From NCBI RefSeq assembly GCF_003053565.1, contig NZ_QAXS01000018.1, positions 1 to 58,151 of the forward strand: a stretch of 58,151 nt of DNA, given 5' to 3'. This DNA is from Halanaerobium saccharolyticum (GTDB taxonomy: Bacteria; Bacillota; Halanaerobiia; Halanaerobiales; Halanaerobiaceae). This document shows, one piece after another, positions 33,887 through 57,035 of this stretch. Positions within the stretch are counted from its first letter, which is position 1; every line of letters starts with the position of its first letter. The notes beneath the pieces are model-generated. The model searched no databases and had not been told where the DNA came from. It saw only the letters and a list, made by a program, of their open reading frames with translations. A program made the position numbers and the translations under genes.

Positions 33887-33953
33887 TAAATTTTAATTAA
33901 AATAAATTATTCATAATAGATTAACAAAATATTTTAAAAGGAGAATTTAAATA

Positions 33954-34958
33954 ATGAAAAGAATAAATCTTAAAATCAGCATTTTAGTCCTAATAGTCCT
34001 AAGTTTATTAATTTTTACAGCAGCCGGAACAGGGGCGGCTTCTGATCTGAAAGAAATAACTATCGGTTATTTTCCCAACATCACCCATGCACCGGCAATT
34101 GTTGGAGTTAGTGAAAATATATTTGTTGATCAGCTAAATGGAATTAAGGTCAAAACTAAAATTTTTCCAAATGGATCACTTTTTATGGACGCTCTGGCCA
34201 CAGATCAAATTGATCTGGGTTATGTTGGACCCGGGCCAGCTATCAATCGTTACCTGCAGGGGGCAGATGTAAAAGCTCTGGCCAGTGCCAGTAACGGGGG
34301 AACAGTTTTAGTTACCCGAAAGGATTTTGAATATAATTCTCTAGCAGATTTAAAAGATAAAATCATTGCAACTCCTGCTCTGGGCTGTACCCATGATCTG
34401 CTATTTAGGCAGTTGATTAAAGACAATAACCTAAATACAAATCGTCGCGGAGGAACTATTGACCACCGGGCTCAAAAACCGGCAACAATGGTTGGCCTTT
34501 TTGCTACCAAACAGCTTGATGCTGCAGTAGTTTCTGAACCCTGGGCCGCAAAAATGGAAGCAGAGATTGGTTCTAAAGTAGTTGTCGACTGGGATCAGAT
34601 GCCCTGGGATGGTAAGCTGCCCGCTGCTGTAGTTGTCTCAACCAGTAAATTTATCGACAATAATCCAGTTTTAATAAATAACTTTCTTAAGGCTCACCAA
34701 AAAACAGTTGAATATATCAATGAAAATCCCCTTAAGAGCAGTAAAATTATTCAGCAGAAAATAAAAGATATAACCAGACAGGAACTGTCTCTAGAAATAA
34801 TTAAAACTTCAATGCAGAGAACCAATATCACTTCCAGGCTCGATAATTCTGCCGTACAAAAGCTTGCTGATCTTTCTGCAGAATTGGGCTTTATTAAAGG
34901 TGATTCTGATCTAAATGGATTTATAGATTCTTCATATTTAGATGAAATAACCAGATAA
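33954..34958 (+). CDS. ABC transporter substrate-binding protein, NitT/TauT family
   Basis: A 334-residue exported binding protein: signal peptide (LVLIVLSLLIFTAAGTGAAS), then ITIGYFPNITHAPAIVGV, DALATDQIDLGYVGPGPAINRYLQG and VVSEPWAAKMEAEIG. It resembles SsuA/NrtA-like proteins. Unlike the two other binding proteins in this window it has no lipobox, so it must be free or anchored by an uncleaved signal peptide. The ligand is probably a sulfur compound, judged from cysK downstream. GGAG lies upstream of the ATG. Confidence 0.86.
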   Translation: MKRINLKISILVLIVLSLLIFTAAGTGAASDLKEITIGYFPNITHAPAIVGVSENIFVDQLNGIKVKTKIFPNGSLFMDALATDQIDLGYVGPGPAINRYLQGADVKALASASNGGTVLVTRKDFEYNSLADLKDKIIATPALGCTHDLLFRQLIKDNNLNTNRRGGTIDHRAQKPATMVGLFATKQLDAAVVSEPWAAKMEAEIGSKVVVDWDQMPWDGKLPAAVVVSTSKFIDNNPVLINNFLKAHQKTVEYINENPLKSSKIIQQKIKDITRQELSLEIIKTSMQRTNITSRLDNSAVQKLADLSAELGFIKGDSDLNGFIDSSYLDEITR

Positions 34959-35044
34959 AATTTGTTATTAATCTGAAATTTTGAAATAATGTATTTAAAG
35001 TTACTGTTTAGATTGATAATCTTAAAAAGTTAGGAAGGATAAAA

Positions 35045-35962
35045 ATGAAGGTAGTAAATAATATAACAGAATTAATTGGTGAAACACCGGTTGTTAAATT
35101 ACAAAAACTTACTAATAAAAATGATGCGGATGTTTATGTTAAATTAGAGTATTTTAACCCCAGCGGCAGTGTAAAGGATCGTCCTGCTTTAAATATGATA
35201 GAGGAAGCCGAAAAAACCGGAAAACTTAATACTGGAGGGACAATAATAGAACCTACCAGCGGCAATACAGGGATTGGACTGGCAATGATTGCTGCAGCTA
35301 GAGGATATAACTGTATTATTATTATGCCTGATAGTGCTTCTCAGGAAAGAATAAATATCTTAAAGGCCTATGGAGCTGAGGTAGTACTTACTCCTGCTCA
35401 AAAAATGATGCAGGGAGCAATTGACAGAGCACATGAATTAAAAAGCAAAATCAATAATTCTTTTATTCCCAACCAGTTTGAAAACCCGGCAAATCCTGCA
35501 GTCCATCGAAAGACAACTGCCCCGGAAATTTTAGAACAGATGAATGGTCAGCTGGATGCTTTTGTAGCCTCAGCAGGTACAGGAGGAACAATTTCTGGCA
35601 CCGGAAATAAACTAAAAGAAAAATTACCTGAATTAAAAATATATACTGTAGAGTCAGAAAATTCTCCTGTTCTCGCCGGTGGTCAACCAGGTCCTCATAA
35701 AATTCCCGGCACCGGACCTGGCTTTATTCCCCAAACTCTGGACAGCAATATTTATGATAAAATCTATCATATTTCTGATCATAATGTAATTGAAATAACT
35801 AAAAAACTGGCTGCTGAAGAAGGCCTTCTTCTCGGCCCCTCTTCTGGTGCAGCTGTCTGGACTGCACTGCAGGTAGCTAAAAATTTAGATCCAGAAAAGA
35901 AAGTGCTTGCTATCGCCGCAGACACCGGACAGAGATATCTTGGGGGAGAGTTTTTTAGTTAA
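35045..35962 (+). CDS. cysK: Cysteine synthase (O-acetylserine sulfhydrylase)
   Basis: CysK makes cysteine from O-acetylserine and sulfide with PLP. The 305-residue protein has the PLP-Lys in NPSGSVKDR (Lys43 or so), the phosphate loop PTSGNTGIGLAM, GTGGTISGTG, and SSGAAVWTALQ near the C-terminus. SVKDR and length are typical for CysK or CysM. Fourth gene of the Rrf2-controlled operon, 86 bp past the binding protein. In CymR systems CysK also acts as co-repressor, which would fit this layout. Confidence 0.94.
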   Translation: MKVVNNITELIGETPVVKLQKLTNKNDADVYVKLEYFNPSGSVKDRPALNMIEEAEKTGKLNTGGTIIEPTSGNTGIGLAMIAAARGYNCIIIMPDSASQERINILKAYGAEVVLTPAQKMMQGAIDRAHELKSKINNSFIPNQFENPANPAVHRKTTAPEILEQMNGQLDAFVASAGTGGTISGTGNKLKEKLPELKIYTVESENSPVLAGGQPGPHKIPGTGPGFIPQTLDSNIYDKIYHISDHNVIEITKKLAAEEGLLLGPSSGAAVWTALQVAKNLDPEKKVLAIAADTGQRYLGGEFFS

Positions 35963-36902: not shown

Positions 36903-37221
36903 TTTTAACACCTCATTATTAAATTTATTATCTTTCAGATTTTAACTGCCACTCATTATACAAGTATACACTCCCTATGTAAAGGCTTAAATAGAGATTA
37001 TTTTATTTTTTTTATTTGTATTTTTTTTAGATGAAAATTAGGCTGCTATAAACACTAGACTAAGCATTAAACAACCTCTGAATCTATCTAAATATTAATG
37101 TTAACCCTAACTCTAAAATACTCTCGCTAAATAACTTTTATGTTTATCAAAATCTTATATAAAATAAAGTTATCCAACATAAGATATTATTATTTTAGTA
37201 TTGATAATAAATAGTATATAA

Positions 37222-37250
37222 TTGATATAGAAACTTGTGAATAATATTAT
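37222..37250 (+). promoter_or_regulatory. Putative promoter of the sulfur module
   Basis: TTGATA (37222-37227), 17-bp spacer, TATTAT (37245-37250), 119 bp ahead of the yeeE-like start. TTGTGAA lies in the spacer, a half-site of the Rex/Fnr kind. The gene-free stretch 36903-37369 is very AT-rich; apart from this and the hairpin at 37302-37331 I see nothing certain in it. Confidence 0.4.
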
Positions 37251-37301
37251 AAATAACTTTTGAGCAAAAATTAAGCAGTAAATTTTGAACTGACATAATT
37301 T

Positions 37302-37369: not shown

Positions 37370-38629
37370 ATGAAAAAATTTGAAAAAGTTTTAGGATTTA
37401 TAGCCATTATTATTGTATTAGCAGCAGCTAAGTTCTGGCTGAAGACAGATCTTCTATTTTTTAGACTATTAGCAGGAGCTGGACTGGGTTATGCTCTGGC
37501 CAGAGCCTACACCGGATTTGCCGGCAGTGTTAACAGAGCCTACAGAACGGGTTCAACCAAGTTGATGAGAACAATGTTATTTATGTTCTTTATTACAGCC
37601 GTTTTAATGACAGCATTTCTATTTGATAAAGATCCAGCAAGCTACAATCTCTGGATTAAACCAATTAATATTGGATTAATGCTGGGAGGTTTTCTGTTTG
37701 GTTTTGGAATGTCTATTTCTGTCTGCTGTGCCAGTGGAGTTTTAACTGATCTACCACAGGCTTTACCGAGAGCATTTACAACACTTATCTTCTTTATGAT
37801 TGGTGTTTTTGTAGGTTTCCCAATTCAGTATACTGCCGACTGGGTTCAGGAATCATGGTTTAGCAGTTATATTGGCTATAGAACAATGGGTGGTGTTTTC
37901 CTTCCCGACTTATTCCAGGGAGATGGATTTGAAGGTTACTTAGGAGCTTTAATTGTTTTTGGTGCAATTTGTCTGCTCTTTACTTTTCTTTCATACTATT
38001 ATGAAAAAAGACAGAAAAAATCTGGAAAATATAGTGGTTTAGAAATCGAAAGAATTCAGGAAAACTTAGAACCAATGGATTTGAAAAACTTTAAATTATT
38101 TAGTCCAGATACTTATTACCATCTGTTTGAAAAACCATGGACTTTAAAACAGGGTGCTATAGCACTTGCTGTAATTGTTACAGTTATGATGGGAGTTACA
38201 GGTTATGGCTGGGGAGTTTCTCAAGCCTATGGTATCTGGTTTGGTAAAATATTAATGTTATTTGGTATTTCAGCTGAAGCAATTGGAGAATTTACTCAGT
38301 TATCAGCCCAAAATTTTGCTACTCCATTTTTTGAACACCAGACTTCCGTTCAGAACTTTGGTATTCTAATTGGTGCAATTATTTACCTTTTAACTGCCGG
38401 TAAATTTATGGAGTTTTTCAACTCTGAACTGCATATTAACAAAAAACAGGTAGCAATGTATTCTCTTGGTGGTTTAACAATGGGCTTTGGTACTCGTCTT
38501 GCACAGGGATGTAATGTTGGAGCCTTATTCACACCAATTTCTAATTTTTCTCTATCAGGTTGGGTATTCCTTATCTTTATGATTATTGGTGGAATAATAA
38601 GTAATAAGTTTAGCGAAAAAGTATTTTAA
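37370..38629 (+). CDS. YeeE/YedE-family sulfur transporter (thiosulfate-type)
   Basis: A 419-residue membrane protein of the YeeE/YedE (sulfur transport) family, whose best-studied member TsuA takes up thiosulfate. It has two homologous halves. Key Cys segments are GFGMSISVCCASGVLTDL in the first and GFGTRLAQGCNVGALFTP in the second; thiol-mediated relay of thiosulfate depends on such Cys. Start ATG 37370 nine bases after GGAGGG; the longer frame to 37313 lacks a binding site. First gene of a run with a CoA-disulfide reductase-rhodanese and a TauABC-like importer, which backs a sulfur role. Confidence 0.86.
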   Translation: MKKFEKVLGFIAIIIVLAAAKFWLKTDLLFFRLLAGAGLGYALARAYTGFAGSVNRAYRTGSTKLMRTMLFMFFITAVLMTAFLFDKDPASYNLWIKPINIGLMLGGFLFGFGMSISVCCASGVLTDLPQALPRAFTTLIFFMIGVFVGFPIQYTADWVQESWFSSYIGYRTMGGVFLPDLFQGDGFEGYLGALIVFGAICLLFTFLSYYYEKRQKKSGKYSGLEIERIQENLEPMDLKNFKLFSPDTYYHLFEKPWTLKQGAIALAVIVTVMMGVTGYGWGVSQAYGIWFGKILMLFGISAEAIGEFTQLSAQNFATPFFEHQTSVQNFGILIGAIIYLLTAGKFMEFFNSELHINKKQVAMYSLGGLTMGFGTRLAQGCNVGALFTPISNFSLSGWVFLIFMIIGGIISNKFSEKVF

Positions 38630-38648
38630 ATTTAGTAAGTAACATGTT

Positions 38649-38673
38649 CTCTCAAACACTATTTTTTTGAGAG
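38649..38673 (+). promoter_or_regulatory. Intercistronic hairpin yeeE-like to CDR
   Basis: CTCTCAAA (38649-38656) pairs with TTTGAGAG (38666-38673). No T-run follows, so a processing or stabilising element is likelier than termination. Confidence 0.4.
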
Positions 38674-38709
38674 TGATTTATAATATAAAATTTACAGGAG
38701 GAATAAAAT

Positions 38710-40407
38710 ATGAGTAAAAGAGTTTTAATTGTTGGGGGAGTAGCTGGTGGAGCTGGTACAGCTGCTAGAGTAAGAAGACTGGATGAAGACGCAGAAGTAA
38801 TTATGTTTGAACGGGGTTCACATGTTTCTTTTTCTAACTGTTCTCTACCTTATCACTTAAGTGGAATTGTTAGAGATTGTGATGATTTAGTTTTAATGTG
38901 CCCTTCCAAATTTGCCGAGCAGTACAATATTGATGCCCGTGTTAACAGTGAAGTTACAAGAATTAATAGAGAAGAAAAAACAATTGAAGTTAAAAATTTA
39001 GAAACTGGTGAAACATACACTGAAGCCTATGATAAATTAATGCTCTCTCCTGGTGCCAATCCAATTAGACCTGGAAGTATCAAGGGAGTAAATAATGATA
39101 ATGTCTTTACTATCAGAAATGTTGATGATATTGACAAATTAAATCAGTATGTTAAGAAAAATAAAGTTGAAAATGTGGCAGTAATTGGTGCCGGTTATAT
39201 CGGAGTTGAAATTGCTGAGAACTTTATCCACTCTGACAAAAATGTAGCTTTAGTTGAAGCTATGGATCAGGTCTTAAATCCTTTTGATTATGATATGGCT
39301 CAAATTATTCAAAAAGAGCTTCATGATAATGGAGTAAATGTAGTTTTATCAGATCCTTTATCTGAGGTAAATGATGACCATGTTGTTTTAAAATCTGGCA
39401 AGAAACTTGACGCTGAAGCTGTTGTTTTAGCTATCGGTGTTAGTCCAGAAACCAAACTTGCTAAAGATGCAGGTTTAAAAATTGGTGAAACAGGTGGAAT
39501 TGAAGTAAATCATAACTATGTAACAAGTGATCCTGATATTTATGCTGTTGGAGATGTAATTGAAGTTTATTCTAAGATTGCCCGCTCTAAAACAAGATTA
39601 CCACTTGCTGGACCAGCCCAGAGACAGGCTCGTGCTGCAGCAAACCACATGTATAATATTCCAAATAAGAACAATGGTGTAATTGGAACTTCTATCATCA
39701 GAGCCTTTAATTACAATGCTGGTGCAACAGGTCTTAATGAAAAACAGCTCCAGGATGCTGGTATTTCATATGATTTTGTTTATGTAATACCTACTGATAA
39801 AGTTGGTCTAATGCCAGATGCTAATCCTTTACACTTTAAATTAATTTACGAAGTGCCAACAGGTAAGATTTTAGGTGCTCAGGCTGTAGGTAAAGGTAAT
39901 GTAGATAAAAGAATTGATGTTATGGCAACAGCTATCTTAATGGATGCAACAGTAGAAGATTTAACTGAATCAGAGTTAGCTTATGCTCCTCTTTTCTCTA
40001 CTCCCAGAAACGCTGTTAATCAGGCCAGCCTGGTAGCAACTAACTTAATCAATAACCGCTACAATCAGATTCCTGTAACTAAGGTTAGAGAATTAGTGGA
40101 AAATGATGCCTTTATCGTTGATGTTCGCGAAAAAGATGAATATGAAGCCGGTCACCTGATTAATTCAGTCAATATTCCTTTAAGTGAATTAAGAGAAAGA
40201 ACTGATGAGATTCCTAAAGACCAGCCAGTTTACTTACACTGCCGTTCAGGCCAGAGAAGTTACAATGCTGTTCTAGCATTACAGGGTAGAGGTTATGATA
40301 ATGTGACTAATATCGCTGGATCTTTCCTAGGAATTTCTTTCTATGAATATTTCCAGGATCAGACAACAGATCGCGAAAAAATTGTAACTGAGTATAACTT
40401 TGAGTAA
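38710..40407 (+). CDS. CoA-disulfide reductase with C-terminal rhodanese domain (NADH-dependent persulfide reductase type)
   Basis: A 565-residue FAD enzyme. Residues 1-450: FAD motif VLIVGGVAGGAGTAARVRRL, single redox Cys44 in FSNCSLPYHLSG, NAD motif AVIGAGYIGVEIAENF. Residues about 465-560: rhodanese with Cys511 in HCRSGQRSY. Such fusions (Npsr in Shewanella, CDR-RHD) reduce CoA-persulfide or polysulfide to sulfide. This fits a partner of the thiosulfate-type transporter upstream and of the exported rhodaneses. AGGAGG upstream of the ATG. Confidence 0.91.
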   Translation: MSKRVLIVGGVAGGAGTAARVRRLDEDAEVIMFERGSHVSFSNCSLPYHLSGIVRDCDDLVLMCPSKFAEQYNIDARVNSEVTRINREEKTIEVKNLETGETYTEAYDKLMLSPGANPIRPGSIKGVNNDNVFTIRNVDDIDKLNQYVKKNKVENVAVIGAGYIGVEIAENFIHSDKNVALVEAMDQVLNPFDYDMAQIIQKELHDNGVNVVLSDPLSEVNDDHVVLKSGKKLDAEAVVLAIGVSPETKLAKDAGLKIGETGGIEVNHNYVTSDPDIYAVGDVIEVYSKIARSKTRLPLAGPAQRQARAAANHMYNIPNKNNGVIGTSIIRAFNYNAGATGLNEKQLQDAGISYDFVYVIPTDKVGLMPDANPLHFKLIYEVPTGKILGAQAVGKGNVDKRIDVMATAILMDATVEDLTESELAYAPLFSTPRNAVNQASLVATNLINNRYNQIPVTKVRELVENDAFIVDVREKDEYEAGHLINSVNIPLSELRERTDEIPKDQPVYLHCRSGQRSYNAVLALQGRGYDNVTNIAGSFLGISFYEYFQDQTTDREKIVTEYNFE

Positions 40408-40510
40408 AATCTTATAGGTACCGGTTACTTGAGAATTTTTTCCAATTAATCCGGTTTTAAATAGTTATAATTTAAAAAATAAAAAGTACCGGCATAAGGA
40501 CGTGTAAACA

Positions 40511-41374
40511 ATGGCTTTAGATAATAAAAAAGAGATCAACAAAGATCAATCCTCATCTAATCATTCTTCAACTCAGAATATCAGCAGAGAGCCAGCTAAA
40601 AATAAAAAAACTAAAACAGAAAGAGCGCTCACTTTTTTAACCTGGACTTCTATTTTTCTTATCTGGTATGTTATAACTAAATTAGGAATTTTTACGCCGA
40701 CTCTACTGCCGGGACCAGCAAGAGTCTGGAGAGCTTTCTTAAGAATTTTAGCTGAAGGTTATAATGGAGTTTCTCTCTGGCTGCATTTAGGAGCCAGTTT
40801 CAAACGTCTCTTTGTTGCTTTATTCTTTGCAATTTTTACCGCTGTTCCGCTGGGACTACTAAGCGGTTATTTTGACAAAGTTGAGGCAGTAATTGATTCT
40901 GTAGTTGAATTTTATCGTCCACTGCCACCACTTGCCTATTATACGCTTTTAGTTCTCTGGTTCGGTATTGATGACACCTCAAAACAGATTCTCTTATTTT
41001 TAGCTGCCTTTGCTCCTATTTATATTGCCTGTGTCTCTGCAGTTAGAAAGTTAAATCAGGATTTTGTGCTAAGTGCCAGATCACTGGGAGCAGCTCAAAA
41101 GGATGTTTTTTTCAAAATTGTGCTGCCGGCTTCTCTGCCCGAAATTTTTACCGGAATCCGAACTGCATTTGGAGTCGCTTATACCACCCTCGTTTCTTCC
41201 GAAATGGTTGCTGCGACTTCCGGTATTGGCTGGATGGTTCTGGATGCATCTAATTTTTTGAAAAGTGATGTGATTTTTGTAGGTATTATAATTATGGGAA
41301 TTACAGGAGTAATAATTGATGCTGGCTTAAGGTTTTTAGAAAGAAAGATAATTTTCTGGAAAGGACATGTCTAA
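40511..41374 (+). CDS. ABC transporter permease, TauC/SsuC-like
   Basis: A 287-residue permease with a long hydrophilic N-terminus (about 35 residues, Lys/Asn/Ser rich) and six helices. The EAA loop is SARSLGAAQKDVFFKIVLPASLPEIFTG. LLPGPARVWRAFLRIL and PLPPLAYYTLLVLWFGID are typical of TauC/SsuC. AAGGACGTG precedes the ATG. Gene order permease-binding protein-ATPase differs from the 32359 operon. Confidence 0.87.
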   Translation: MALDNKKEINKDQSSSNHSSTQNISREPAKNKKTKTERALTFLTWTSIFLIWYVITKLGIFTPTLLPGPARVWRAFLRILAEGYNGVSLWLHLGASFKRLFVALFFAIFTAVPLGLLSGYFDKVEAVIDSVVEFYRPLPPLAYYTLLVLWFGIDDTSKQILLFLAAFAPIYIACVSAVRKLNQDFVLSARSLGAAQKDVFFKIVLPASLPEIFTGIRTAFGVAYTTLVSSEMVAATSGIGWMVLDASNFLKSDVIFVGIIIMGITGVIIDAGLRFLERKIIFWKGHV

Positions 41375-41469
41375 AACTTATAATTTAAATTCTAATTACA
41401 CTTTACGATTGAACTTATGCTGAGAATAAATTTGATTTGAGATAATTCAAAAAATTTGGAGGTACTGAA

Positions 41470-42555
41470 ATGAAAAAAAGTTACTTAAAAAAATTATTTC
41501 TGTTATTTATAGTGGCAGCACTTGCTTTAACGCTAACAGCCTGCGGGAGTGATCAGGCTCAAAATGATAGTTCAGAAACTGAAAATACAGCTGCCCAGGA
41601 ATCACTGCCTGAAGAGATTAATTTTGGTATTTTAAGAGTTCCTAATGATGAAACTATTGCAGTTGCTGAAGGTTTTTTCGATGATTATTTTACTGAACGT
41701 GGAATCGAGGTTAATACCAGAGTTTTTGATTCCGGAGTCGAAGCCAATCAGGCCCTTGCTTCTGGAAGTATTGATTTTGCTACTATGGGAAATACAAATG
41801 CAATTACCGCTCTCGCCCGTGAACTCAATGTCGAATTAATCTGGATCCATGAGGTTCTGGGAGAAAATGAAGCGCTGGCAGTCAAAAATGGTTCTGGGAT
41901 TGAAACAGTTGAAGATCTGGTTGGAGAAAGAATTGCAGTTCCTTTTGCTTCTACCGCCCACTATATTCTTTTAAATGTTCTAAAAGAAGCTGGGATTGAA
42001 AAAGATGTTCAGCTTTTAGATATGCAGACTGCCGAAATTGTAGCCGCCTGGGAACGGGGAGATGTCAAGGCAGCTTATACCTGGCAGCCAACTCTGGCCC
42101 AGCTTTTAAAAAGCGGCTCTACTTTAACTGACAGCAGAGAAATGGCTGAAAAAGGCTATATTACCGCCAATGTTGACGTTGTCCGCAAAGGATTTTCTGA
42201 GGAATACCCAGAATTAGTTGCTGATTTTATTTCTGCTCTGACTAAGGCTGGAGATATTTATAGAAGTGACCCTGAAAAAGCTGCTGAAATTGCAGGTAAG
42301 GAACTCGGCCTGGAAACTGAAGTTGCTCTGCATCAAATGCGTGGTACCACCTGGAAAACAAGAGAAGAACTCTTAAGTGAAGATTTCTTTGGTACAATTG
42401 ATCAACCCGGAAACTTTGCCAAAGTAATGAAAGATACTTCCGACTTCCTGCAGAATCAGGGTTCTATTGAAGAATCTCCTTCTCAGGAAGCCTTTAATGA
42501 ATATGTTAATCCTGAATATATCAAAATGTCACTGGAAAATGAAGAAAATAATTAA
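41470..42555 (+). CDS. ABC transporter substrate-binding lipoprotein, TauA-like
   Basis: A 361-residue lipoprotein with lipobox LTAC (Cys25), followed by an acidic linker and INFGILRVPNDETIAVAEGFFDDYF. VDGNQALASG-type loops (DSGVEANQALASGSIDFATMGN), AWERGDVKAAYTWQPTL and MRGTTWKTREELL are in the TauA/SsuA pattern. The ligand is likely a sulfonate such as taurine or another sulfur compound. GGAGGT precedes the ATG. Confidence 0.87.
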   Translation: MKKSYLKKLFLLFIVAALALTLTACGSDQAQNDSSETENTAAQESLPEEINFGILRVPNDETIAVAEGFFDDYFTERGIEVNTRVFDSGVEANQALASGSIDFATMGNTNAITALARELNVELIWIHEVLGENEALAVKNGSGIETVEDLVGERIAVPFASTAHYILLNVLKEAGIEKDVQLLDMQTAEIVAAWERGDVKAAYTWQPTLAQLLKSGSTLTDSREMAEKGYITANVDVVRKGFSEEYPELVADFISALTKAGDIYRSDPEKAAEIAGKELGLETEVALHQMRGTTWKTREELLSEDFFGTIDQPGNFAKVMKDTSDFLQNQGSIEESPSQEAFNEYVNPEYIKMSLENEENN

Positions 42556-42619
42556 TTTTAATATTTAAGATTTTAACTTAATCAATGTAATTAAAGCTAA
42601 TCAGGAAAGGATATATTTT

Positions 42620-43414
42620 ATGTCTGCTCAAACAAAAAAAGAGAGCTTAATTAAAATTGAAGATATGAGCCTGGAATATGGTGAAAGTATTAATTCTACA
42701 CTTGCCCTTAAAAATATTAACTTAGAAATTAATAAAGGTGAATTTATCTGTGTTTTAGGCCCTTCTGGCTGTGGTAAGAGTTCACTGCTTAAATGTATTG
42801 CCGGCTATGTGAAGCCAAGTTCTGGCAGAGTTATGATGCAGGGGAAGCAGGTTGAGGGTCCTGACTGGCACCGGGGAGTTGTCTTTCAATCTCCTACCCT
42901 CTATCCCTGGATGACTGTGAATGAAAATGTTGAATTTGGACCTAAAATGCGAGATCTACCCAGGGCTGAAATTAAAGAAATTCGGGAATATTTTTTAGAT
43001 GAAGTTAATTTGAGTGGATTCGGTGAAAATTATACCTTTGAATTATCCGGGGGTATGAAACAGCGAGTTGCTATTGCTCGGGTGCTGGCTAATTATCCTC
43101 AGGTTGTCTTAATGGATGAACCTTTTGGAGCCCTGGATGCTTTAACCAGAGAAAATATGCAGAACTTAATCCGCAACATTTGGGAAGAAAATAATACGAC
43201 CATCTTTTTTATCACCCATGATGTGGATGAAGCACTTTTACTGGCCAATCGAGTTGTTGTGATGTCAAAACAGCCGGGAGAGATTATTAAAATCTTTGAT
43301 GTTGATTTTACAAATCAGATATTTGAAAAGGGAACAAAAGAAGTAATTTACAATGAGGATTATTTTGCAGTTAAAAATGAAATTATGGATATTATTCACG
43401 GTCAAATCGATTAA
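42620..43414 (+). CDS. ABC transporter ATP-binding protein, TauB-like
   Basis: A 264-residue ATPase with Walker A GPSGCGKSS, signature LSGGMKQR, Walker B VVLMDEP and ITHDVDEALLLA. FQSPTLYPWMTVNENV is typical of NitT/TauT ATPases. It completes the TauABC-type importer and is followed by a strong terminator at 43479-43504, so the sulfur operon runs from 37370 to here or in two parts. Confidence 0.88.
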   Translation: MSAQTKKESLIKIEDMSLEYGESINSTLALKNINLEINKGEFICVLGPSGCGKSSLLKCIAGYVKPSSGRVMMQGKQVEGPDWHRGVVFQSPTLYPWMTVNENVEFGPKMRDLPRAEIKEIREYFLDEVNLSGFGENYTFELSGGMKQRVAIARVLANYPQVVLMDEPFGALDALTRENMQNLIRNIWEENNTTIFFITHDVDEALLLANRVVVMSKQPGEIIKIFDVDFTNQIFEKGTKEVIYNEDYFAVKNEIMDIIHGQID

Positions 43415-43478
43415 TTTTTAATCTAGTGCTTAGTCCAAAATAATTTTAGGATAAATATTATAGCAACATATAATGCAG

Positions 43479-43504
43479 AAAGGAGCCCAAATGGGCTCCT
43501 TTCT
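43479..43504. terminator. Terminator after tauB-like gene, bidirectional
   Basis: GAAAGGAGCCC and GGGCTCCTTTC pair perfectly around AAAT. It lies between the convergent tauB-like and rhodanese genes. Confidence 0.8.
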
Positions 43505-43559
43505 TGTATAAAGATTAATTTTATACTTATCTTCTGCTTAATTTAATTTTTAACTCAGA

Positions 43560-44459
43560 TTACTGAACTACTTCGTATCCCTGATTAGCCCAACCAAGTG
43601 GTGCATTAGCATCAGTTCCCATACCACCATTAAGTGATACAGCATCATAGCCTAACATTCTTAAACCAGCTACTGCCTGACCTGCAGTTTGACCTGTGTA
43701 ACAGTAAACAACTAACTTCTGATCCTGTGGAAGCTGTCCAAAATACTGCTCCATACCAGCACCCCAGGGAATATTAACTGCACCTTCTATATGACCTTCA
43801 GCGAAAGCTCCTGGCTGTCTAATTGAAACTACCATCATATCTGCATCAGAGTCTACAGCCATCTTTAACATATCTTCAGCAATTTTATAGTTCTTATACA
43901 TTGAATCACTAACATCAGCTAAACCTGCATAATAGTCTTCAATAGCAGCTTTAACATCTGAATTAATTTCATAATCTGTAGCTCCACCAAGTTCATTTGC
44001 CTCAGTTTCAACTATTTCTTCATAACCATCAACTTGAGAAATTCCAAGATTCCAACCAAATCTAACTGATTTAGCTTCAAAACCGGCAAAGTTTAATAAA
44101 GCAACCGCCTGATTTGCAGTCTGAGCTGTATAACAGTAAACATAAATAGTCTCATCACCAGGTAACTTGTCTAAAGCAGCTGGCATAGCGTCTGGACCCC
44201 AGGGTACATTTACTGCACCTTTGACATGTCCTTCATTATAAACATCAGGCTGTCTGATATCTAAAACAAAGAGATCTTCTCCAGCTTTAACTTTTTCTAC
44301 AAAAGCTTCTTCCCCAATCATGCCATTATCTTCTGGAAGATTTGCAAAATAACCATTAACCGCATCCTCTACTGCATCTGAAACTGCAAGTGCTGAACTG
44401 GAAACTACAAGTAAAGCCATCATAACTATTGCCATTGATAATAAAATTCTTTTTTTCAT
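43560..44459 (-). CDS. Exported two-domain rhodanese, both active sites kept
   Basis: A 299-residue sulfurtransferase. Signal peptide (residues 1-25, cut after ALA). Two rhodanese domains: about 50-140 with the persulfide Cys109 in CYTAQTA, and about 205-295 with Cys253 in CYTGQTA. In normal tandem rhodaneses the first domain is dead; here both have the Cys loop. It would move sulfane sulfur from thiosulfate outside the cell. AGGAGG lies before the ATG. The inverted repeat at 44505-44540 may control it. Confidence 0.88.
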   Translation of the reverse strand: MKKRILLSMAIVMMALLVVSSSALAVSDAVEDAVNGYFANLPEDNGMIGEEAFVEKVKAGEDLFVLDIRQPDVYNEGHVKGAVNVPWGPDAMPAALDKLPGDETIYVYCYTAQTANQAVALLNFAGFEAKSVRFGWNLGISQVDGYEEIVETEANELGGATDYEINSDVKAAIEDYYAGLADVSDSMYKNYKIAEDMLKMAVDSDADMMVVSIRQPGAFAEGHIEGAVNIPWGAGMEQYFGQLPQDQKLVVYCYTGQTAGQAVAGLRMLGYDAVSLNGGMGTDANAPLGWANQGYEVVQ

Positions 44460-44504
44460 TCTTATTCCTCCTAATTTTTTGATGAAATATTAAAGATAAC
44501 TAAA

Positions 44505-44540
44505 TTGTGAAATTGCAATACATTAAAATATATTTCACAA
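44505..44540. promoter_or_regulatory. Split inverted repeat upstream of the exported rhodanese
   Basis: TTGTGAAAT (44505-44513) and ATTTCACAA (44532-44540) are perfect 9-bp inverted copies, 18 bp apart. Each half matches the Rex half-site TTGTGAA and the Fnr/Crp TGTGA, though in both cases the normal spacing is far shorter (4 or 6 bp). It sits 45-80 bp upstream of the start. Confidence 0.5.
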
Positions 44541-44550
44541 ACTTTCTTAA

Positions 44551-44581
44551 ATAAAAGTTCTCAACTCACTGTTAAGAACTT
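44551..44581 (-). terminator. Terminator of the rhodanese lipoprotein gene
   Basis: AAGTTCTCAAC (44555-44565) pairs with GTTAAGAACTT (44571-44581) with one G-U pair in the minus-strand RNA; CTTTTATTT follows. Confidence 0.7.
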
Positions 44582-44615
44582 CTATTATCAACATTAATTT
44601 GTTAAAATAATTTAC

Positions 44616-45536
44616 TTAAGAACCATCCTGAGCACTTGGTTCAGCAGGAGCACCACTTAGCATTCCCTTTGGAGTTGAGCTATCTGATGACCATTCGATC
44701 CAGGCACCGTCGTAAAGCTTAAGATCTCTATAACCAGCATTATGTAGAGCTAAGAAGCTTTGAGCAGCTCTAATTGAAGTTTGACAGTACATTATAACCT
44801 CTTTATCTGGAGTGATATCATTATCTGGATAATATCTTTGAATATAACTTGGTGGATAAAATTCTCCATTATCCTTATTATTGTCGACATAATTGATATG
44901 AATAGCTCCAGGAATAATACCCTCACTAACCTCATCGGCAGTTCTAACATCTAAAATAACAACATCTTCAGCAGGATTGTTTGCCTGTTCAAGAACTTCT
45001 TCCTTAGTAGCAATTAGCTCCTCATTCTTTTCAGCAGCAGTGTATTCTGCAGCCTCAACCTCGTAGTCACCGGAAACAAATTCTGCTCCAGCTTCTTCTA
45101 AAGCATTTAAACCTCCACTAATGACTTTCATATTTGCAGTGTCATGGCCGTAAACCAGCATTGTCCACCATAAACGAGCTGCATCCATATTATTGTTATT
45201 ATCATAAATTATTACCTTTGTCTGATTGGAAATACCATTCTCCCCCAAAGAAGATTCTAATTTGGAAGCATCGGCCAGCATATTTGGATAAGGACCAAAA
45301 GTAGTAATATCATTTCTGGCAATGTTTACTGAACCTTCAAGGTGCTGGTCTTCAAAGTCACCAGAGTTTTGAGTATCAACTACAACTACCTCTTCTTCCT
45401 CAATCATCTTTAAAGCTTCATCAGCTGTAATTATATCCTGCCCCACTTCACCGGGAACAGAAATATCCGCTTCACAGCCTGTGAGAATAATCGCAAAAGC
45501 TAATAAAATAAATAATACCTTTATTGATTTTTTCAT
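44616..45536 (-). CDS. Thiosulfate sulfurtransferase lipoprotein
   Basis: A 306-residue lipoprotein, lipobox LTGC (Cys21), with two rhodanese domains in the classical order: an inactive first one (YDNNNNMDAARLWW where the Cys loop would be) and an active second with Cys251 in CQTSIRA. EWSSDSSTPKG at the end is typical of thiosulfate:cyanide sulfurtransferases. GGAGGTG precedes the ATG. It and the two-active-site rhodanese downstream would split thiosulfate outside the cytoplasm, upstream of the YeeE transporter and persulfide reductase. Confidence 0.88.
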   Translation of the reverse strand: MKKSIKVLFILLAFAIILTGCEADISVPGEVGQDIITADEALKMIEEEEVVVVDTQNSGDFEDQHLEGSVNIARNDITTFGPYPNMLADASKLESSLGENGISNQTKVIIYDNNNNMDAARLWWTMLVYGHDTANMKVISGGLNALEEAGAEFVSGDYEVEAAEYTAAEKNEELIATKEEVLEQANNPAEDVVILDVRTADEVSEGIIPGAIHINYVDNNKDNGEFYPPSYIQRYYPDNDITPDKEVIMYCQTSIRAAQSFLALHNAGYRDLKLYDGAWIEWSSDSSTPKGMLSGAPAEPSAQDGS

Positions 45537-45739: not shown

Positions 45740-47359
45740 ATGTATTTTACTGTTAAAGATATCTTTAAAAAAATAAAAGCCTGGAATTTAATAGTTCTCT
45801 TTTTTATTATAAACCTTTTCTTTCTCAAAAACTTTCCCTTTGTTCATTCAGACGAGGCCTGGTTGAGCGGGCTTTCTCGACAGATAATGCAGACAAATAA
45901 CCCAGCCAGCACTGAAACGTTTTTTGATCTGCTGCCGCGGAACCCACATGCAATCAAAATCTTTTTTCACTTTTTACAGATCATTTTTATTAAGTTATTA
46001 GGTTATCAAGTCTTTACTTTTCGCTTAATTTCACTGCTGGCCGGCAGTTTGAGTCTTTTTATCTTTTATAAAATAACTTTTTTAATTACCAACTCTAAAA
46101 AATTAAGTATACTGGCTTTAATTATACTGGGCCTGGACATTCATTTTATTTATAGTTCCCATCTGGCCCGGCAGGAAATTATATTAGTTTTAATATTCTT
46201 AACTGCACTCTATTATTTTTTAAATGCGATAGAAAAAACTGATGAAAAAAATTATTCAGAATCAAAAAAAGAAGACACAATTAAAAAAGATATCTATCTT
46301 GGCCTTATTCTGGGCTCAGCTATTGGTTTCCATCCAAATGCTTTTATTATTTCCATGCCCTTTATAATGATCTACAGCTGGAAACTGGCTTTCAATAAAA
46401 AAACTAAACTTAAAAATTATTTAAGTTTTGGGGGAACTTTAGCAGTAACTGCCTTCTTTTTTATTTTTTTAAGTTTTCTCTTTGATCCTAATTTTATTGG
46501 CAATTACAGCAGCTATGGAGCTCAGTTGGGTGTGCTGGATTCTTTACTGCTTAAATTAGAAAATTTTAAAGATTTTTATCTAAAATTATTTTATCAGGTA
46601 AGCGGTACCTATTATGTTCCTCCGATTAAATTTCAACTGGTATTTTTTGCAGCTGCAGCTCTGGCTTCACTGGCTAAACTTTTACTTAACAAAGATAAGT
46701 TAAATTTATTTTTGCTTATCAGTCTATTAGCTGTTAATCTGGGATATTTAATTATCGGCAGATACAATCAAACTTCAATAATTTTTATCTTTCCGATTGC
46801 TTATCTTATATTTATCAACCTAATAAAAAATTTAAATTTTAAACTGAGCGGCAGCTTAATCCTGATTTTAATTGCGCTTTTAACCCTGAACAGTGGGACT
46901 ACAATAATTGAGGAGAGCCATTATAATTACCAGGATTATCTGCAGCAGATTGCAGAGGTAGTGCCGCGAGATGCCAGGGTGCTGGCAAATCTAAATACAG
47001 ACTATTATTTTGAAAATGGAAGCCTTGTTGATTACCGAAACCTTGCTTATCTGCAGGAAAATAATCTCTCTTTTGCTGATTATATAAATCAAAATGAAAT
47101 CGAATATATAATTTATCCCGAAGAAATGGATTATATCTACAACAGCCGACCAAGCTGGAATATTCTCTACGGCAATCTCTATCCTTATTATCAAGAAATG
47201 CAGCATTTTCTCAATCAGGAAACTGAACTAATCAAAGAGTTTACTAATTCTACCTATCCAATGAGAATTGTAAGAAAAATTGGAGCCAAAAACTGGTCAG
47301 TTAAAATTTATAAAGTCAATTCTACAGCTGAGACTGGAGCTTTTCAAAAAGCTGATTAA
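45740..47359 (+). CDS. GT39/ArnT-like membrane glycosyltransferase
   Basis: A 539-residue membrane protein with about eleven helices of the PMT/ArnT (GT-C) type. The catalytic acidic motif is in the first loop: FVHSDEAWLSGLSRQIM. GT39 enzymes take a sugar from a polyprenyl phosphate and put it on a protein, lipid or glycan outside the membrane. LARQEIILVLIFLTALYY and GSAIGFHPNAFIISMP also fit the family. AGGAG precedes the ATG. Its end overlaps the convergent ABC ATPase gene by 38 bp. Linked by place to the amino-sugar operon 47322-53963. Confidence 0.82.
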   Translation: MYFTVKDIFKKIKAWNLIVLFFIINLFFLKNFPFVHSDEAWLSGLSRQIMQTNNPASTETFFDLLPRNPHAIKIFFHFLQIIFIKLLGYQVFTFRLISLLAGSLSLFIFYKITFLITNSKKLSILALIILGLDIHFIYSSHLARQEIILVLIFLTALYYFLNAIEKTDEKNYSESKKEDTIKKDIYLGLILGSAIGFHPNAFIISMPFIMIYSWKLAFNKKTKLKNYLSFGGTLAVTAFFFIFLSFLFDPNFIGNYSSYGAQLGVLDSLLLKLENFKDFYLKLFYQVSGTYYVPPIKFQLVFFAAAALASLAKLLLNKDKLNLFLLISLLAVNLGYLIIGRYNQTSIIFIFPIAYLIFINLIKNLNFKLSGSLILILIALLTLNSGTTIIEESHYNYQDYLQQIAEVVPRDARVLANLNTDYYFENGSLVDYRNLAYLQENNLSFADYINQNEIEYIIYPEEMDYIYNSRPSWNILYGNLYPYYQEMQHFLNQETELIKEFTNSTYPMRIVRKIGAKNWSVKIYKVNSTAETGAFQKAD

Positions 47360-48083
47360 AATCTCTGCTGCTCCGAATACGAGGGTATGGAAGTTTATTT
47401 TCAATAATATTAATTACTTCGCCCGGCTCATTTTTCATCAGCACTATTCTTTGGGAAAGAAAAACTGCCTCCCTGATATCATGGGTCACAAAAATAATTG
47501 TTCTCTCTTCTTCCTGCCAGAGCTGAACCAAAAGCTGCTGCAGCTCCTGGCGAGTCTGGCTGTCTACACTGCCAAATGGTTCGTCCATTAACATAATTTC
47601 AGCTTCTGCAGCCAGGGTTCTGGCCAGAGCAGCTCTCTGCTTCATTCCTCCGGAAAGCTGATGTGGATAATAATTCTGATAGTCCAGGAGTTTAACTTCT
47701 TCTAGATATTTAAGAGCTTTTTCTTTAATCTCTGCTGAACTTAGCTTTTCTTTGTTGTTTTTAGCTGCTGCTTTAACTGCAAATTCTACATTGTCAATTA
47801 CCTTCTGCCAGGAAAAAAGTTGCTCAAAATCCTGAAATAACATTATTCTATCTAAACCCGCTTCTATAAGTTCTTCTCCTTCTTTTAAAAACTGACCTCT
47901 ATCTGTTTTGCTGAAACCGGCTATTATTTTAAGTAAAGTTGATTTACCACAACCGGAAGGACCTAAGATCGTCAAAAATTCATTTTCTTTAATCTCTAAA
48001 TTAATATCCTTTAAAGCAATCTTTTTTTCTTTTTCGGTCTCAAAACTTTTATTAACATTTTTAAGTTCTAAATAGGATTTCAT
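47322..48083 (-). CDS. ABC transporter ATP-binding protein, NitT/TauT type (amino-sugar operon)
   Basis: A 253-residue ATPase: Walker A GPSGCGKST, LSGGMKQR, IMLMDEP, VTHDIREAVFLS. It resembles TauB/SsuB. Last gene of the operon. ATG 48083 overlaps the permease stop as ATGA, so the two are translationally coupled; the in-frame ATG at 48098 is upstream of that overlap. The final 38 bases overlap the convergent GT39 gene. Confidence 0.86.
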   Translation of the reverse strand: MKSYLELKNVNKSFETEKEKKIALKDINLEIKENEFLTILGPSGCGKSTLLKIIAGFSKTDRGQFLKEGEELIEAGLDRIMLFQDFEQLFSWQKVIDNVEFAVKAAAKNNKEKLSSAEIKEKALKYLEEVKLLDYQNYYPHQLSGGMKQRAALARTLAAEAEIMLMDEPFGSVDSQTRQELQQLLVQLWQEEERTIIFVTHDIREAVFLSQRIVLMKNEPGEVINIIENKLPYPRIRSSRDFNQLFEKLQSQL

Positions 48084-48850
48084 TTTAACATTCCCCATTT
48101 TTTAACTGTTTTTGCTTCCAGCTTTTCAAAAATAAAATCTTCAACAGCTATCCCAATTAGAATAATCACAATTATCCCGGCAAATACCCCCGGCAAATCA
48201 AAGAAAACCCTTTTTTGAAAAATATACCAGCCAAGACCTCCCAGACTGTTAATTGCACCAAAGAGCATTTCAGCACTAATTAACGCCCGCCAGGATCTGG
48301 CCCAGGCTATTTTTAAACCGGAAATAAAGTAAGGTAAGGAAGCGGGGATTAATATCTTATACATAAATTCTAATTTATTTAAACGATAATTTTTGGCAAT
48401 CAGAGTATAAATATCAGGAATAGAATTAAAACCTGTACTTAAATTTAAAACTAAAGGCCATAAAACTGAATGAATAATTACAATCAAAATTGCTGTTTTG
48501 CCAGAACCAAACCAGATCAAAATTAAAGGCATCAGAGCTATTCCAGGCAGGGGATGCGCAAGAGCAGTAAGAGTATCTATCAAACCAGCAGCATAACTAG
48601 AAAAATAAGCTGTCAGAGAAAGAATCAAAGCTGTAATAGTGGCCAGAAATAGACCCTGGGCAATCACTGATAATGAAAATCCTATCTGCTTAATTAAGGT
48701 GCCATCTTTTAGTGACTCAAATAGAGCAATTAATATCTGGTCAAGGCCGGGAAAAATCATTTCCGAAAAAATTCCGCTTACTGCTGTCAGCTGCCAGATC
48801 AGAGATAAAATCATCCCCCAAAAAAATCGCTGTTTATATTTACTCTTCAT
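48080..48850 (-). CDS. ABC transporter permease, NitT/TauT type (amino-sugar operon)
   Basis: A 256-residue six-helix permease with the EAA loop IAKNYRLNKLEFMYKILIPASLPYFISG and the downstream ARSWRALISAEMLFG that the family shares. Its start overlaps the end of the binding protein gene by 11 bases and its stop overlaps the ATPase start. Confidence 0.86.
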   Translation of the reverse strand: MKSKYKQRFFWGMILSLIWQLTAVSGIFSEMIFPGLDQILIALFESLKDGTLIKQIGFSLSVIAQGLFLATITALILSLTAYFSSYAAGLIDTLTALAHPLPGIALMPLILIWFGSGKTAILIVIIHSVLWPLVLNLSTGFNSIPDIYTLIAKNYRLNKLEFMYKILIPASLPYFISGLKIAWARSWRALISAEMLFGAINSLGGLGWYIFQKRVFFDLPGVFAGIIVIILIGIAVEDFIFEKLEAKTVKKWGMLK

Positions 48851-49847
48851 TTTGGACAGCTTCCTCCTCTGAAGCAGTTTCCCTGCCGGTTAAATTTTTT
48901 TCAAAAACAAGCTCAGAATACTGATAATTATTTGCTTCCAGATAGGCTTCTGCAGTCATAAAGTCAATAAATTTATCCAGTCCTTTGACCTCAGAACTGT
49001 ATATCATTCCCGGCCAGTTTAAATATTCCAGCATTTCAGTCTGACTTAAACTATAATTATCTGCCAGAATTTCCGCTGCTTCTTCTGGCTGGCCTTCTAT
49101 AAATTCTATCGCTTTCTCCAGAGCGTCCAGAAAATAAGCATAATTTTTAGGCTGCTGCTCGTAAAACTCCTCAGTACTGACACCTATAATAAAGGTGAAG
49201 TCACCACCAAAGGCTTTTCTGCCGCTTAAGATCTTTTTAATTCCTTCTTCTCTGCTTTCTAAAAAAAGATAAGGAGGGGAGGCAAAATGAGCACTTACTT
49301 CTCTGCCGGCAAGCAGAGCATTCATTGCATCAGGATGACTCATTGTCAAAAGCTGTTCATCAAATCTATCAACTTCTCCAAATTCTCTTTCAGCTGCCAT
49401 TGAGAGCAGAATATGCTGAATACTTCCGGGCTGGGGAAGTGCAATTTTAGCATCAGTTTTAAAATCTGCCAGACTATTAATATCTCCTCTGTTAGTCATT
49501 AAGCCCAGGGGACTCTCAGAAAGACCGGAGATAATTTTCCACTCCATCCCCTTATCGCGAGCAATTAAAAAAGGAGGAATGGCCATAAAAGCTATATCAA
49601 CTTCGCCAGCCAGCATTGACTCTCTAATAGAAGTAGTATTGCTCAGCTGCTTCCATTCGACTTTTAAATTTGGGTTGGCTTCTTCTAAAAACTTAAGTTC
49701 TTTGATTAACTGTACAGGAGCATAGGCCAGCCCGTACTGTTCGGCAATAGTAATTTTTTGCTGTGGCCCTGCTTCATTATTTTCACAGCCGCTGACCAAC
49801 AGCAGAGTTAAGAGCAAAACTATAATAATTGTTAGATACTTTTTCAT
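48840..49847 (-). CDS. ABC transporter substrate-binding lipoprotein (amino-sugar operon)
   Basis: A 335-residue lipoprotein with lipobox VSGC (Cys21). ITIAEQYGLAYAPVQLIKEL, MLAGEVDIAFMAIPPFLIARDKGM, IALPQPGSIQHILLSMAAERE and VSAHFASPPYLFLES follow the NitT/TauT binding-protein layout. The ligand is unknown; unlike the other two importers no sulfur gene is next to it. It begins 18 bp after the ATP-grasp stop, behind AGGAGTG. Confidence 0.85.
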   Translation of the reverse strand: MKKYLTIIIVLLLTLLLVSGCENNEAGPQQKITIAEQYGLAYAPVQLIKELKFLEEANPNLKVEWKQLSNTTSIRESMLAGEVDIAFMAIPPFLIARDKGMEWKIISGLSESPLGLMTNRGDINSLADFKTDAKIALPQPGSIQHILLSMAAEREFGEVDRFDEQLLTMSHPDAMNALLAGREVSAHFASPPYLFLESREEGIKKILSGRKAFGGDFTFIIGVSTEEFYEQQPKNYAYFLDALEKAIEFIEGQPEEAAEILADNYSLSQTEMLEYLNWPGMIYSSEVKGLDKFIDFMTAEAYLEANNYQYSELVFEKNLTGRETASEEEAVQNEE

Positions 49848-49864
49848 ACTTACACTCCTGATTT

Positions 49865-57027: not shown

Positions 57028-57035
57028 TTAAAATA

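Follow-up and report, generated by a model that had tools for sequence, protein, structure and literature searches.

The seven genes at positions 37370-45536 of the window, the whole analysed stretch of 58,151 nucleotides from Halanaerobium saccharolyticum, form a module that is conserved across the class and kept together in a range of halophilic anaerobes. The encoded proteins are a YedE/YeeE-family sulfur transporter, a persulfide reductase-like flavoprotein, the three subunits of a TauABC-like ABC importer and two exported rhodaneses, and the module is a new combination of known parts. Judged from the sequences, it may be a sulfane-sulfur module, in which the outer sulfur of thiosulfate is stripped outside the cell and reduced to sulfide inside; we regard the case for and against this reading as evenly balanced. 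A preliminary description of the region had listed seven sulfur-related genes lying side by side. All seven are full open reading frames with the expected domains, and they are adjacent, but the rhodanese pair lies on the opposite strand and is not co-operonic with the other genes here.

The preliminary description had also suggested searching other genomes for the same gene set. The gene yedE followed by coadr (the CoA-disulfide-reductase/rhodanese gene) is found in 20 of the 59 class genomes, including 10 of the 12 Halanaerobium genomes, and the carriers span seven different family labels. The order yedE-coadr is present in 20/20 carriers, coadr-tauC in 18 of the 19 testable genomes, tauC-tauA in 18/18 and tauA-tauB in 17/17, where 19 carriers were assessed by neighbourhood comparison and the H. 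saccharolyticum genome was added from its own open reading frames; a one-residue tauC product in G040 entered no count. Conservation of this order across seven family labels is more than chance. The importer is not universal in the module, since the yedE-coadr pair of G011 has no adjacent tauCAB. The exported rhodanese genes lie upstream of and colinear with the block in four genomes outside the genus (G019, G024, G029 and G040), and are inverted and downstream of it in the genus Halanaerobium and in G030. The conserved neighbourhood exceeds the sulfur genes, as it includes a GT39-like gene, another ABC importer and an ATP-grasp gene, which makes adjacency weaker as proof of a common pathway. 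G002, probably the genome of H. hydrogeniformans, lacks the module. A split-YedE neighbourhood was read as open reading frames in G002 and was detected by homology search only in G004. A wider contig scan returned nine loci, every one titled Halanaerobium or Halanaerobiales; the nearest named relatives belong to Halanaerobium, which bears out the genus given in the preliminary description. Immediately upstream of yedE lie cysK and ssu genes (32359-35962), which were considered as part of the module and rejected, because among the loci fetched close homologues adjacent to yedE occur only in G003 (L105).

The transporter gene (37370-38629, forward strand) encodes a protein of 419 residues with a Sulf_transp domain (PF04143, E 9.6e-49), profile matches to PDB entries 6leo and 8j4c, and the two half-protein cysteines of the YeeE/YedE superfamily. 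Cys120 and Cys381 are present in all 14 sequences compared and are also invariant columns in a 10-sequence alignment, while an additional adjacent cysteine, in the motif CCASG, occurs in 13 of the 14. These 14 represent the 20 carriers without G003, G009, G011 and G020, and without G010 and G040, which were dropped as fragments of at most 400 residues; G003, G009 and G011 are present in the separate 10-row alignment. The earlier label of a thiosulfate-type YeeE/YedE transporter is thus correct for the family, but not for the TsuA equivalog, to which the protein scores 42 bits against an NCBIfam cut-off of 400 and with which it shares two of three conserved cysteines. Of the S. thermophila TsuA cysteines, the equivalents of Cys91 and Cys293 are kept and the first is absent. 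TsuA/YeeE, SoxT and YedE1E2/PmpAB all belong to the same Pfam family as the module protein, which keeps the Cys91 and Cys293 equivalents but differs in the missing first TsuA cysteine, the added CCASG cysteine and the partner gene: inspection of the adjacent open reading frames by eye revealed no TsuB/TusA-like gene. An identity as the selenium-linked YedE/FdhT protein was rejected on its score (NF033796, 93 versus 350 bits). In the literature TsuA is described as a thiosulfate importer and YedE1E2 as an importer of zero-valent sulfur (PMC10812762).

The flavoprotein gene (38710-40407, forward strand) encodes 565 residues with, according to Pfam, a pyridine nucleotide-disulfide oxidoreductase fold and a C-terminal rhodanese domain. 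The match to PDB entry 3icr (E 1.8e-143) covers residues 2-539, that to 3nta falls in two stretches, and the CoA-persulfide reductase 8a56 is among the further matches. These results bear out the proposed CoA-disulfide reductase-rhodanese, an FAD-dependent enzyme, in its architecture; the score against the CoA-disulfide reductase equivalog TIGR03385 is 453.5 bits, below the cut-off of 578.8. Cys44 on the FAD side and Cys511 in the rhodanese domain are conserved in 16/16 sequences compared (the 20 carriers without G003, G009, G011 and G020). By fold and by both cysteines the protein fits the Npsr/CoA-persulfide reductase class, with a putative NADH-dependent persulfide-reducing activity. It matches Npsr and the CoADR-RHD proteins of S. 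loihica, B. anthracis and A. fulgidus over nearly its full length and has both catalytic cysteines in common with them, but differs from these in that its gene belongs to a conserved block which also codes for exported rhodaneses and an ABC importer. The mechanism of Npsr has been described, with persulfide and polysulfide as preferred substrates (PMC7969121).

Both exported proteins contain rhodanese domains with an active-site cysteine and are putative acceptors of sulfur from thiosulfate. The gene at 43560-44459 (reverse strand) encodes a protein with a signal peptide recognised by eye and PF00581 in two stretches with the loops CYTAQT and CYTGQT, so that the announced rhodanese with two active sites is indeed encoded. 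Its Cys109 and Cys253 are present in all 12 sequences compared, a 194-residue sequence having been dropped and G040 left out. The thiosulfate sulfurtransferase lipoprotein of the preliminary description corresponds to 44616-45536 (reverse strand), with PF00581 again in two stretches, a match to 3hwi (E 4.5e-26) and an LTGC lipobox recognised by eye. Of its two rhodanese domains only one has the active cysteine (loop CQTSIR); Cys21 and Cys251 are conserved in 15/15 sequences, G040 being left out. The rdlA gene of H. congolense is said to encode a rhodanese, reported by Ravot in 2005, and RdlA (protein record Q6Q1E2, cited in PMC5573963) may be one of these two exported rhodaneses.

The importer is encoded on the forward strand by tauC (permease, 40511-41374), tauA (substrate-binding lipoprotein with a lipobox seen by eye, 41470-42555; 6ssy, E 2.6e-42) and tauB (ATPase, 42620-43414). 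The subunit make-up is TauABC-like, as had been claimed in the preliminary description, which gave the importer no part in its route, but all three subunits stay below their taurine-equivalog cut-offs (TauA 216 versus 304 bits, TauB 251 versus 357 for NF008421, TauC 236 versus 342 for NF007545). In the TauA pocket Asp205 is replaced by Asn, Gln30 by Val or Ile and Leu204 by Ala in all 18 orthologues compared (of 20 carriers), the Gln30 column being less certain because it lies near alignment gaps, while Glu106 and Thr132 are kept in 18/18. Two of the four taurine-contact residues Gln30, Glu106, Thr132 and Asp205 are therefore replaced, and the pocket predicted in this way argues against plain taurine as the ligand. 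Compared with E. coli TauABC, the module importer has the same subunit make-up and much of the pocket in common, but differs in the altered residues, in the equivalog scores and in having no adjoining TauD-like gene.

Two non-coding elements flank the forward-strand genes. Upstream of yedE, on the same strand, a conserved block (37160-37260) contains an imperfect dyad (37160-37174/37183-37197, an inverted repeat with 80% complementarity) and promoter-like sequence, and 63 of the 87 positions in 37164-37250 are identical across the seven genus sequences compared. An RNA leader was rejected: an Rfam search of the locus gave no match, and none of 36 pairs shows changes on both sides (0/36), a promoter/operator being the likelier reading of the block. 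Where tauB and the rhodanese genes converge, a GC-rich palindrome read by eye (43479-43502) is a probable two-way terminator, which is not in the list of the consensus terminator scan; with the rhodanese genes on the other strand behind it, they do not form one operon with the remaining genes here. The promoter and terminator scans performed no better than on shuffled sequences (35 hits versus a mean of 32.1, and 6 versus 5.4).

The proposed conversion would proceed in three steps. First, the lipoprotein and the double rhodanese would take the outer sulfur of thiosulfate as a cysteine persulfide in the periplasm, leaving sulfite outside. The YedE-family channel would then pass the persulfide sulfur into the cell, using its pair of conserved cysteines. 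The last step is modelled on homologues that have been studied: the cytoplasmic flavoprotein would accept the sulfur on its rhodanese domain, enzyme-bound CoA would hand it over to the cysteine on the FAD side, and its reduction to sulfide would draw on NADH. The net effect would be an electron sink independent of sulfite reductase. The TauABC-like importer would supply the module with a sulfonate-like ligand, perhaps thiosulfate or else a small thiosulfonate. On a further reading, the importer would have a role specific to thiosulfate metabolism: in place of taurine it would bring in a carrier of sulfane sulfur whose head group is sulfonate-like, such as thiosulfate or a small thiosulfonate (e.g. 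thiotaurine, loaded by the exported rhodaneses), to be unloaded by the rhodanese domain of the flavoprotein, and the seven genes together would make up the whole route from thiosulfate to sulfide without any need for Asr. This further reading seems to us rather doubtful.

The distribution of sulfite reductases bears on the need for such a pathway. H. praevalens (G005) carries the module, and its genome yields no PF01077 (siroheme sulfite reductase) match at E 0.001, no PF00384 (molybdopterin oxidoreductase) match at E 1e-10 and no AsrC over the cut-off. Since this species is recorded as positive for thiosulfate reduction (PMC3156398), another route must exist unless an unrecognised enzyme is at work. 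Within the genus, 5 of 10 carriers have no PF01077 match, two of these five genomes being 83% and 75% complete; to carriers devoid of any PF01077 protein the published route of a rhodanese plus Asr cannot apply as it stands. H. congolense (G001) has the module and a PF01077 protein but no AsrC over the cut-off, and, by the title of a 1997 paper of Ravot, reportedly reduces both thiosulfate and sulfur. The module is absent from G004, probably H. polyolivorans, a species described as using S0 but not thiosulfate (PMC10536098). Where both are known, presence or absence of the module fits published thiosulfate use, but the contrast is only suggestive because few species are compared, and since the two module-free genomes of the genus, both also without selD over the cut-off, look like close relatives, other gene losses would fit it equally well. 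What stands of the earlier proposal that this gene set gives a route from thiosulfate is thus a conserved module with catalytic cysteines that appear intact, and a fit to thiosulfate use in a few species.

The published Asr route is real in many strains. According to Booker et al. 2017 (PMC5497025), all three asr genes occur in six of eight isolates; AsrC exceeds the cut-off in 3 of our 12 genus genomes. The H. saccharolyticum genome has no AsrC over the cut-off and three AsrB matches, all below it (best 66.8 versus 288.6 bits), a cut-off that none of 14 control genomes exceeds either; it does contain a siroheme protein resembling assimilatory sulfite reductase. A molybdopterin thiosulfate reductase was rejected, as the single PF00384 protein found in this genome, inspected by eye together with its neighbour, looks like an enzyme of the NAD-linked formate dehydrogenase type. 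As far as it is set out in PMC5497025, the AsrABC route shares with our proposal the splitting of thiosulfate by a rhodanese, sulfide as the product and the genus, but it reduces the sulfite half, whereas the module would reduce the sulfane half and dispense with sulfite reductase; the main text of that paper contains none of the words transporter, persulfide and YeeE. A 2025 paper (PMC12093946) states, in the part considered here, that rhodanese-type enzymes alone would yield no sulfide, its formation being made possible by asr and sir.

As an alternative to periplasmic stripping, intact thiosulfate might enter through YedE or the TauABC-like importer and be reduced by the cytoplasmic flavoprotein, much as has been suggested in Thermotoga; the rhodaneses outside the cell would then be accessory. 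The NSR of T. maritima is described as an NAD(P)H thiosulfate reductase that also acts on sulfane sulfur; thiosulfate raises the expression of both nsr and yeeE, the latter 42.6-fold (PMC9431562). That system resembles the module in its YeeE-family transporter and cytoplasmic NAD(P)H sulfane reductase, but its nsr and yeeE locus tags are distant and dsrE/tusA adjoin yeeE; the word rhodanese is absent from the main text of the report, and TauABC is not mentioned in the part considered. Import of intact thiosulfate is also in line with TsuA being a family member and with the TauA pocket, which retains the sulfonate-contact glycine positions as well as Thr132. We nevertheless think it unlikely, because YedE is far from TsuA in score and lacks its first cysteine, a TsuB/TusA-like neighbour was not seen by eye, and the invariant active sites of both exported rhodaneses sit ill with an accessory role.

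Under the stripping scheme the module serves as an electron sink, and a role in sulfane-sulfur homeostasis, detoxification or assimilation instead appears improbable. The match to the CoA-persulfide reductase 8a56 would suit such a role, a protective function has been discussed for Npsr of A. fulgidus (PMC7969121), and an Acinetobacter yedE1-yedE2-pdo2 operon is linked to sulfur detoxification (PMC10812762), but exported enzymes of the thiosulfate-sulfurtransferase type point to an outside substrate, and absence of the module from the probable genome of the thiosulfate non-user H. polyolivorans fits a dissimilatory role. That same genome speaks against elemental sulfur or polysulfide as the main substrate, as H. 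polyolivorans reduces S0; apart from this species, PMC10536098 names just H. saccharolyticum subsp. saccharolyticum and the module carrier H. congolense as previously reported sulfur reducers, while the module occurs in more species, and the lipoprotein rhodanese resembles thiosulfate sulfurtransferases. Despite the zero-valent sulfur import by YedE1E2, the substrate preference of Npsr and the sulfur reduction by H. congolense, we hold such a substrate to be distinctly unlikely.

There is also little probability that tauC, tauA and tauB encode an ordinary sulfonate importer and lie in a conserved neighbourhood by coincidence. The apparently unrelated genes in this neighbourhood, the taurine-pocket Glu106 kept throughout and two more NMT1-type importers in the window would agree with this, but the importer genes adjoin the flavoprotein gene in 18/19 testable genomes under seven family labels, every subunit is below its taurine cut-off, and the sole PFL-like glycyl radical enzyme found in the H. 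saccharolyticum genome at E 1e-40 adjoins an activase-like gene and, by eye, reads as a pyruvate formate-lyase. A locus for selenium uptake or handling is very improbable: Lin et al. 2015 tied YedE to selD (PMC5322559), and selD is over the cut-off in 9/10 genus carriers (in two pieces in G010) and 0/2 non-carriers, but this co-occurrence does not hold class-wide (17/20 carriers versus 25/39 non-carriers, Fisher p 0.13), the module occurs without selD over the cut-off in G024, a single-contig genome of 99% completeness, and in G040, of 90% completeness, and YedE scores far below the YedE/FdhT cut-off.

Halanaerobium is described as dominant in fractured shale wells and as making sulfide from thiosulfate (PMC5497025). 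In strains without the usual sulfite-reducing enzyme, the module is a concrete candidate route. If the sulfane-sulfur reading is true, a function would be suggested for a conserved TauABC-type importer that name-based annotation would label a taurine importer. Screening of wells for asr genes would then miss sulfide producers, and yedE together with the flavoprotein gene would be the better marker.

All seven sulfur genes of the preliminary description are confirmed as complete open reading frames with the expected domains, in a source genome (G000) of 3.2 Mb, 94 contigs and 98.7% completeness. On the forward strand lie yedE (37370–38629), the flavoprotein gene coadr for a CoA-disulfide reductase-rhodanese (CoADR; 38710–40407), tauC (40511–41374), tauA (41470–42555) and tauB (42620–43414), followed on the reverse strand by the exported double rhodanese rhdX (43560–44459) and the lipoprotein rhodanese tstL (44616–45536). 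The YedE-family protein falls well under the NCBIfam cut-off for TsuA, and also well under that for the selenium-linked YedE/FdhT. In a structure-database profile comparison the flavoprotein matches 3icr (CoA-disulfide reductase with a rhodanese domain), 3nta (Npsr) and 8a56 (CoA-persulfide reductase) across nearly its whole length. The source species assigned to 3icr and 3nta agree with PMC7969121. TstL matches thiosulfate sulfurtransferase structures, and RhdX gives weak matches to various rhodanese domains.

The key cysteines are invariant in the sequences compared: Cys44 and Cys511 of the flavoprotein (16/16), Cys109 and Cys253 of the double rhodanese (12/12), Cys21 (lipobox) and Cys251 of the lipoprotein rhodanese (15/15), and Cys120 and Cys381 of YedE (14/14); signal peptides and lipoboxes were assigned by eye. 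The two YedE cysteines align with sites described in PMC11582611 as essential to S. thermophila TsuA and as occurring in PmpB and PmpA. The first cysteine of TsuA is absent from window-type YedE.

The class was searched with a YedE alignment as query, which gave matches at E 1e-30 in 28 of 59 genomes, and at least one stretch from each of the 27 matching genomes besides G000 was compared with the window proteins. The YedE-CoADR pair, part of the gene set that the preliminary description had proposed to look for in other genomes, occurs in 20 of the 59, G000 included. Same-strand adjacency holds for yedE-coadr in 20/20, for coadr-tauC in 18 of 19 testable cases (the G003 contig breaks off there; in the exception, G011, the next gene reads as glutamate dehydrogenase), for tauC-tauA in 18/18 and for tauA-tauB in 17/17, with contigs ending in G010 and G020. 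Four genomes (G019, G024, G029 and G040, the last assembled from two contigs with the break inside yedE) show the order tstL-rhdX-yedE-coadr-tauC-tauA-tauB in one direction throughout. Behind tauB, tstL occurs without rhdX in G041, G042 and G045, and in G006 rhdX and tauB lie ∼4.2 kb apart with a distant cysK-like match (30%) between them. No rhodanese genes of the rhdX/tstL kind were seen in the stretches compared from G010, G011, G020 and G051, the last of which has a distant YedE (34% identity).

Conservation of the neighbourhood extends beyond the sulfur genes, since a GT39-like gene, another ABC importer and an ATP-grasp gene are retained next to them. In genomes of several families the GT39-like gene, an ssuBCA-like importer and the ATP-grasp gene (45740–51109 in the window; named by eye) adjoin the rhodanese genes; parts of this set also occur in two genomes in which no YedE-CoADR-Tau block was seen, G026 and G027. 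Elsewhere in the window, three P-type metal ATPases (22633–25119, 27665–29515 and 29705–31639) lie close to a CsoR-like (22299) and an Fnr/Crp-type (26616) regulator gene, all named by eye, and a group II intron match (RF00029) is located near the window end at 57033–57105 on the minus strand. In a search across the 59 class genomes, full-length selD matches contain an in-frame TGA except in G057 and G058, which makes SelD a probable selenoprotein in the majority of the class.

The binding protein of the importer has TauA as its best structural matches (6ssy, E 2.6e-42). E. coli TauA binds taurine via Gln30, Glu106, Thr132 and Asp205, as established by mutagenesis (PMC6906117). The module proteins (n=18) retain Glu106 and Thr132, while Asp205 is replaced by Asn, Leu204 by Ala and Gln30, in an alignment column with gaps nearby, by Val or Ile. 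At E 1e-40, G000 yields just one PFL-like glycyl radical enzyme, which, with an activase-like gene alongside, reads by eye as pyruvate formate-lyase. Because of these pocket replacements and this apparent assignment of the only PFL-like enzyme, the one kind of sulfonate-cleaving candidate searched for, plain taurine uptake is not supported, but it may still occur. Three sulfonate/NMT1-type ABC importers lie within ∼18 kb (32359–34958, 40511–43414 and 47322–49847), the first followed by cysK (35045–35962).

The published Halanaerobium model (PMC5497025) combines rhodanese with anaerobic sulfite reductase (Asr); three rhodaneses are up with thiosulfate there. In G000 neither AsrB nor AsrC exceeds its cut-off, with weaker matches to both; no control genome exceeds the AsrB cut-off either, and AsrC does so in 3 of 12 genus genomes. 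The one siroheme protein of G000, with a TusA-like end, resembles by eye an assimilatory sulfite reductase. PF01077 (siroheme sulfite reductase family) is matched in 5 of 12 genus genomes and not in five of ten genus carriers of the module (G003, G005, G006, and the incomplete drafts G010 and G011); PF00384 (molybdopterin oxidoreductase family) at E 1e-10 has no match in G005, G007, G008, G009 and G011. Both searches work, since each matched 11 of 14 control genomes.

Seven genus sequences share 63 of 87 identical positions upstream of yedE (37164–37250), in a block that holds an imperfect dyad and is a candidate operator; one 23-base segment of this block has a single occurrence in the window when up to 3 mismatches are allowed. 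Upstream of rhdX, a perfect 9-nt inverted repeat (TTGTGAAAT/ATTTCACAA, arms 18 nt apart) lies at 44505–44540, its gene-distal arm present in 6 of 7 aligned genus sequences.

Within the genus, window-type YedE occurs in 10 of 12 genomes (partial, at a contig start, in G010). As far as contigs extend, the order is yedE-coadr-tauC-tauA-tauB followed by inverted rhodaneses, an arrangement shared by named relatives including H. congolense and H. saccharolyticum. The remaining two genomes, G002 (probably H. hydrogeniformans) and G004 (probably H. polyolivorans), have YedE only as split distant forms. Through its rhodanese domain, a frame of flavoprotein length was also hit by the double-rhodanese query in all ten carriers, and no such frame was hit in G002 or G004, an indirect sign that the flavoprotein is missing there too. 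Their split YedE lies near an exported sulfurtransferase-like gene only ∼27% identical to tstL (stretches L078, 9482–13356, and L077, 9807–13643, respectively), with a regulator-like gene between the two in G002; these genes possibly represent an alternative sulfur system.

Thiosulfate reduction and rhodanese activity in H. praevalens GSL are both given as positive in PMC3156398, which cites Ravot 2005. G004 and G002 share 87.6% nucleotide identity across 7.5 kb, the longest piece of the two stretches compared. In PMC10536098, H. hydrogeniformans is the nearest relative of H. polyolivorans, which used elemental sulfur as its only electron acceptor, thiosulfate being among those tested. No report concerning thiosulfate in H. 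hydrogeniformans was found in the parts of the literature examined. A 2026 genus-wide genome comparison (PMC13340142) describes TST as universal and asrA as occurring chiefly in genomes from reservoirs, so that a TST gene alone cannot separate thiosulfate users from others. The gene set is described in no title or abstract opening among the open papers, within the matches listed for Halanaerobium thiosulfate/rhodanese, YeeE/YedE, CoA-disulfide reductase, TauABC and persulfide.

Since few lineages are involved, species names are inferred and other genes differ too, the fit between the module and reported thiosulfate use is suggestive rather than proof: H. praevalens (G005) and H. congolense have it, and the probable H. 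polyolivorans is without it. The earlier interpretation, in which thiosulfate would be split or carried at the surface and persulfide reduced inside, is partly supported, and both synteny and the case of H. praevalens strengthen it.
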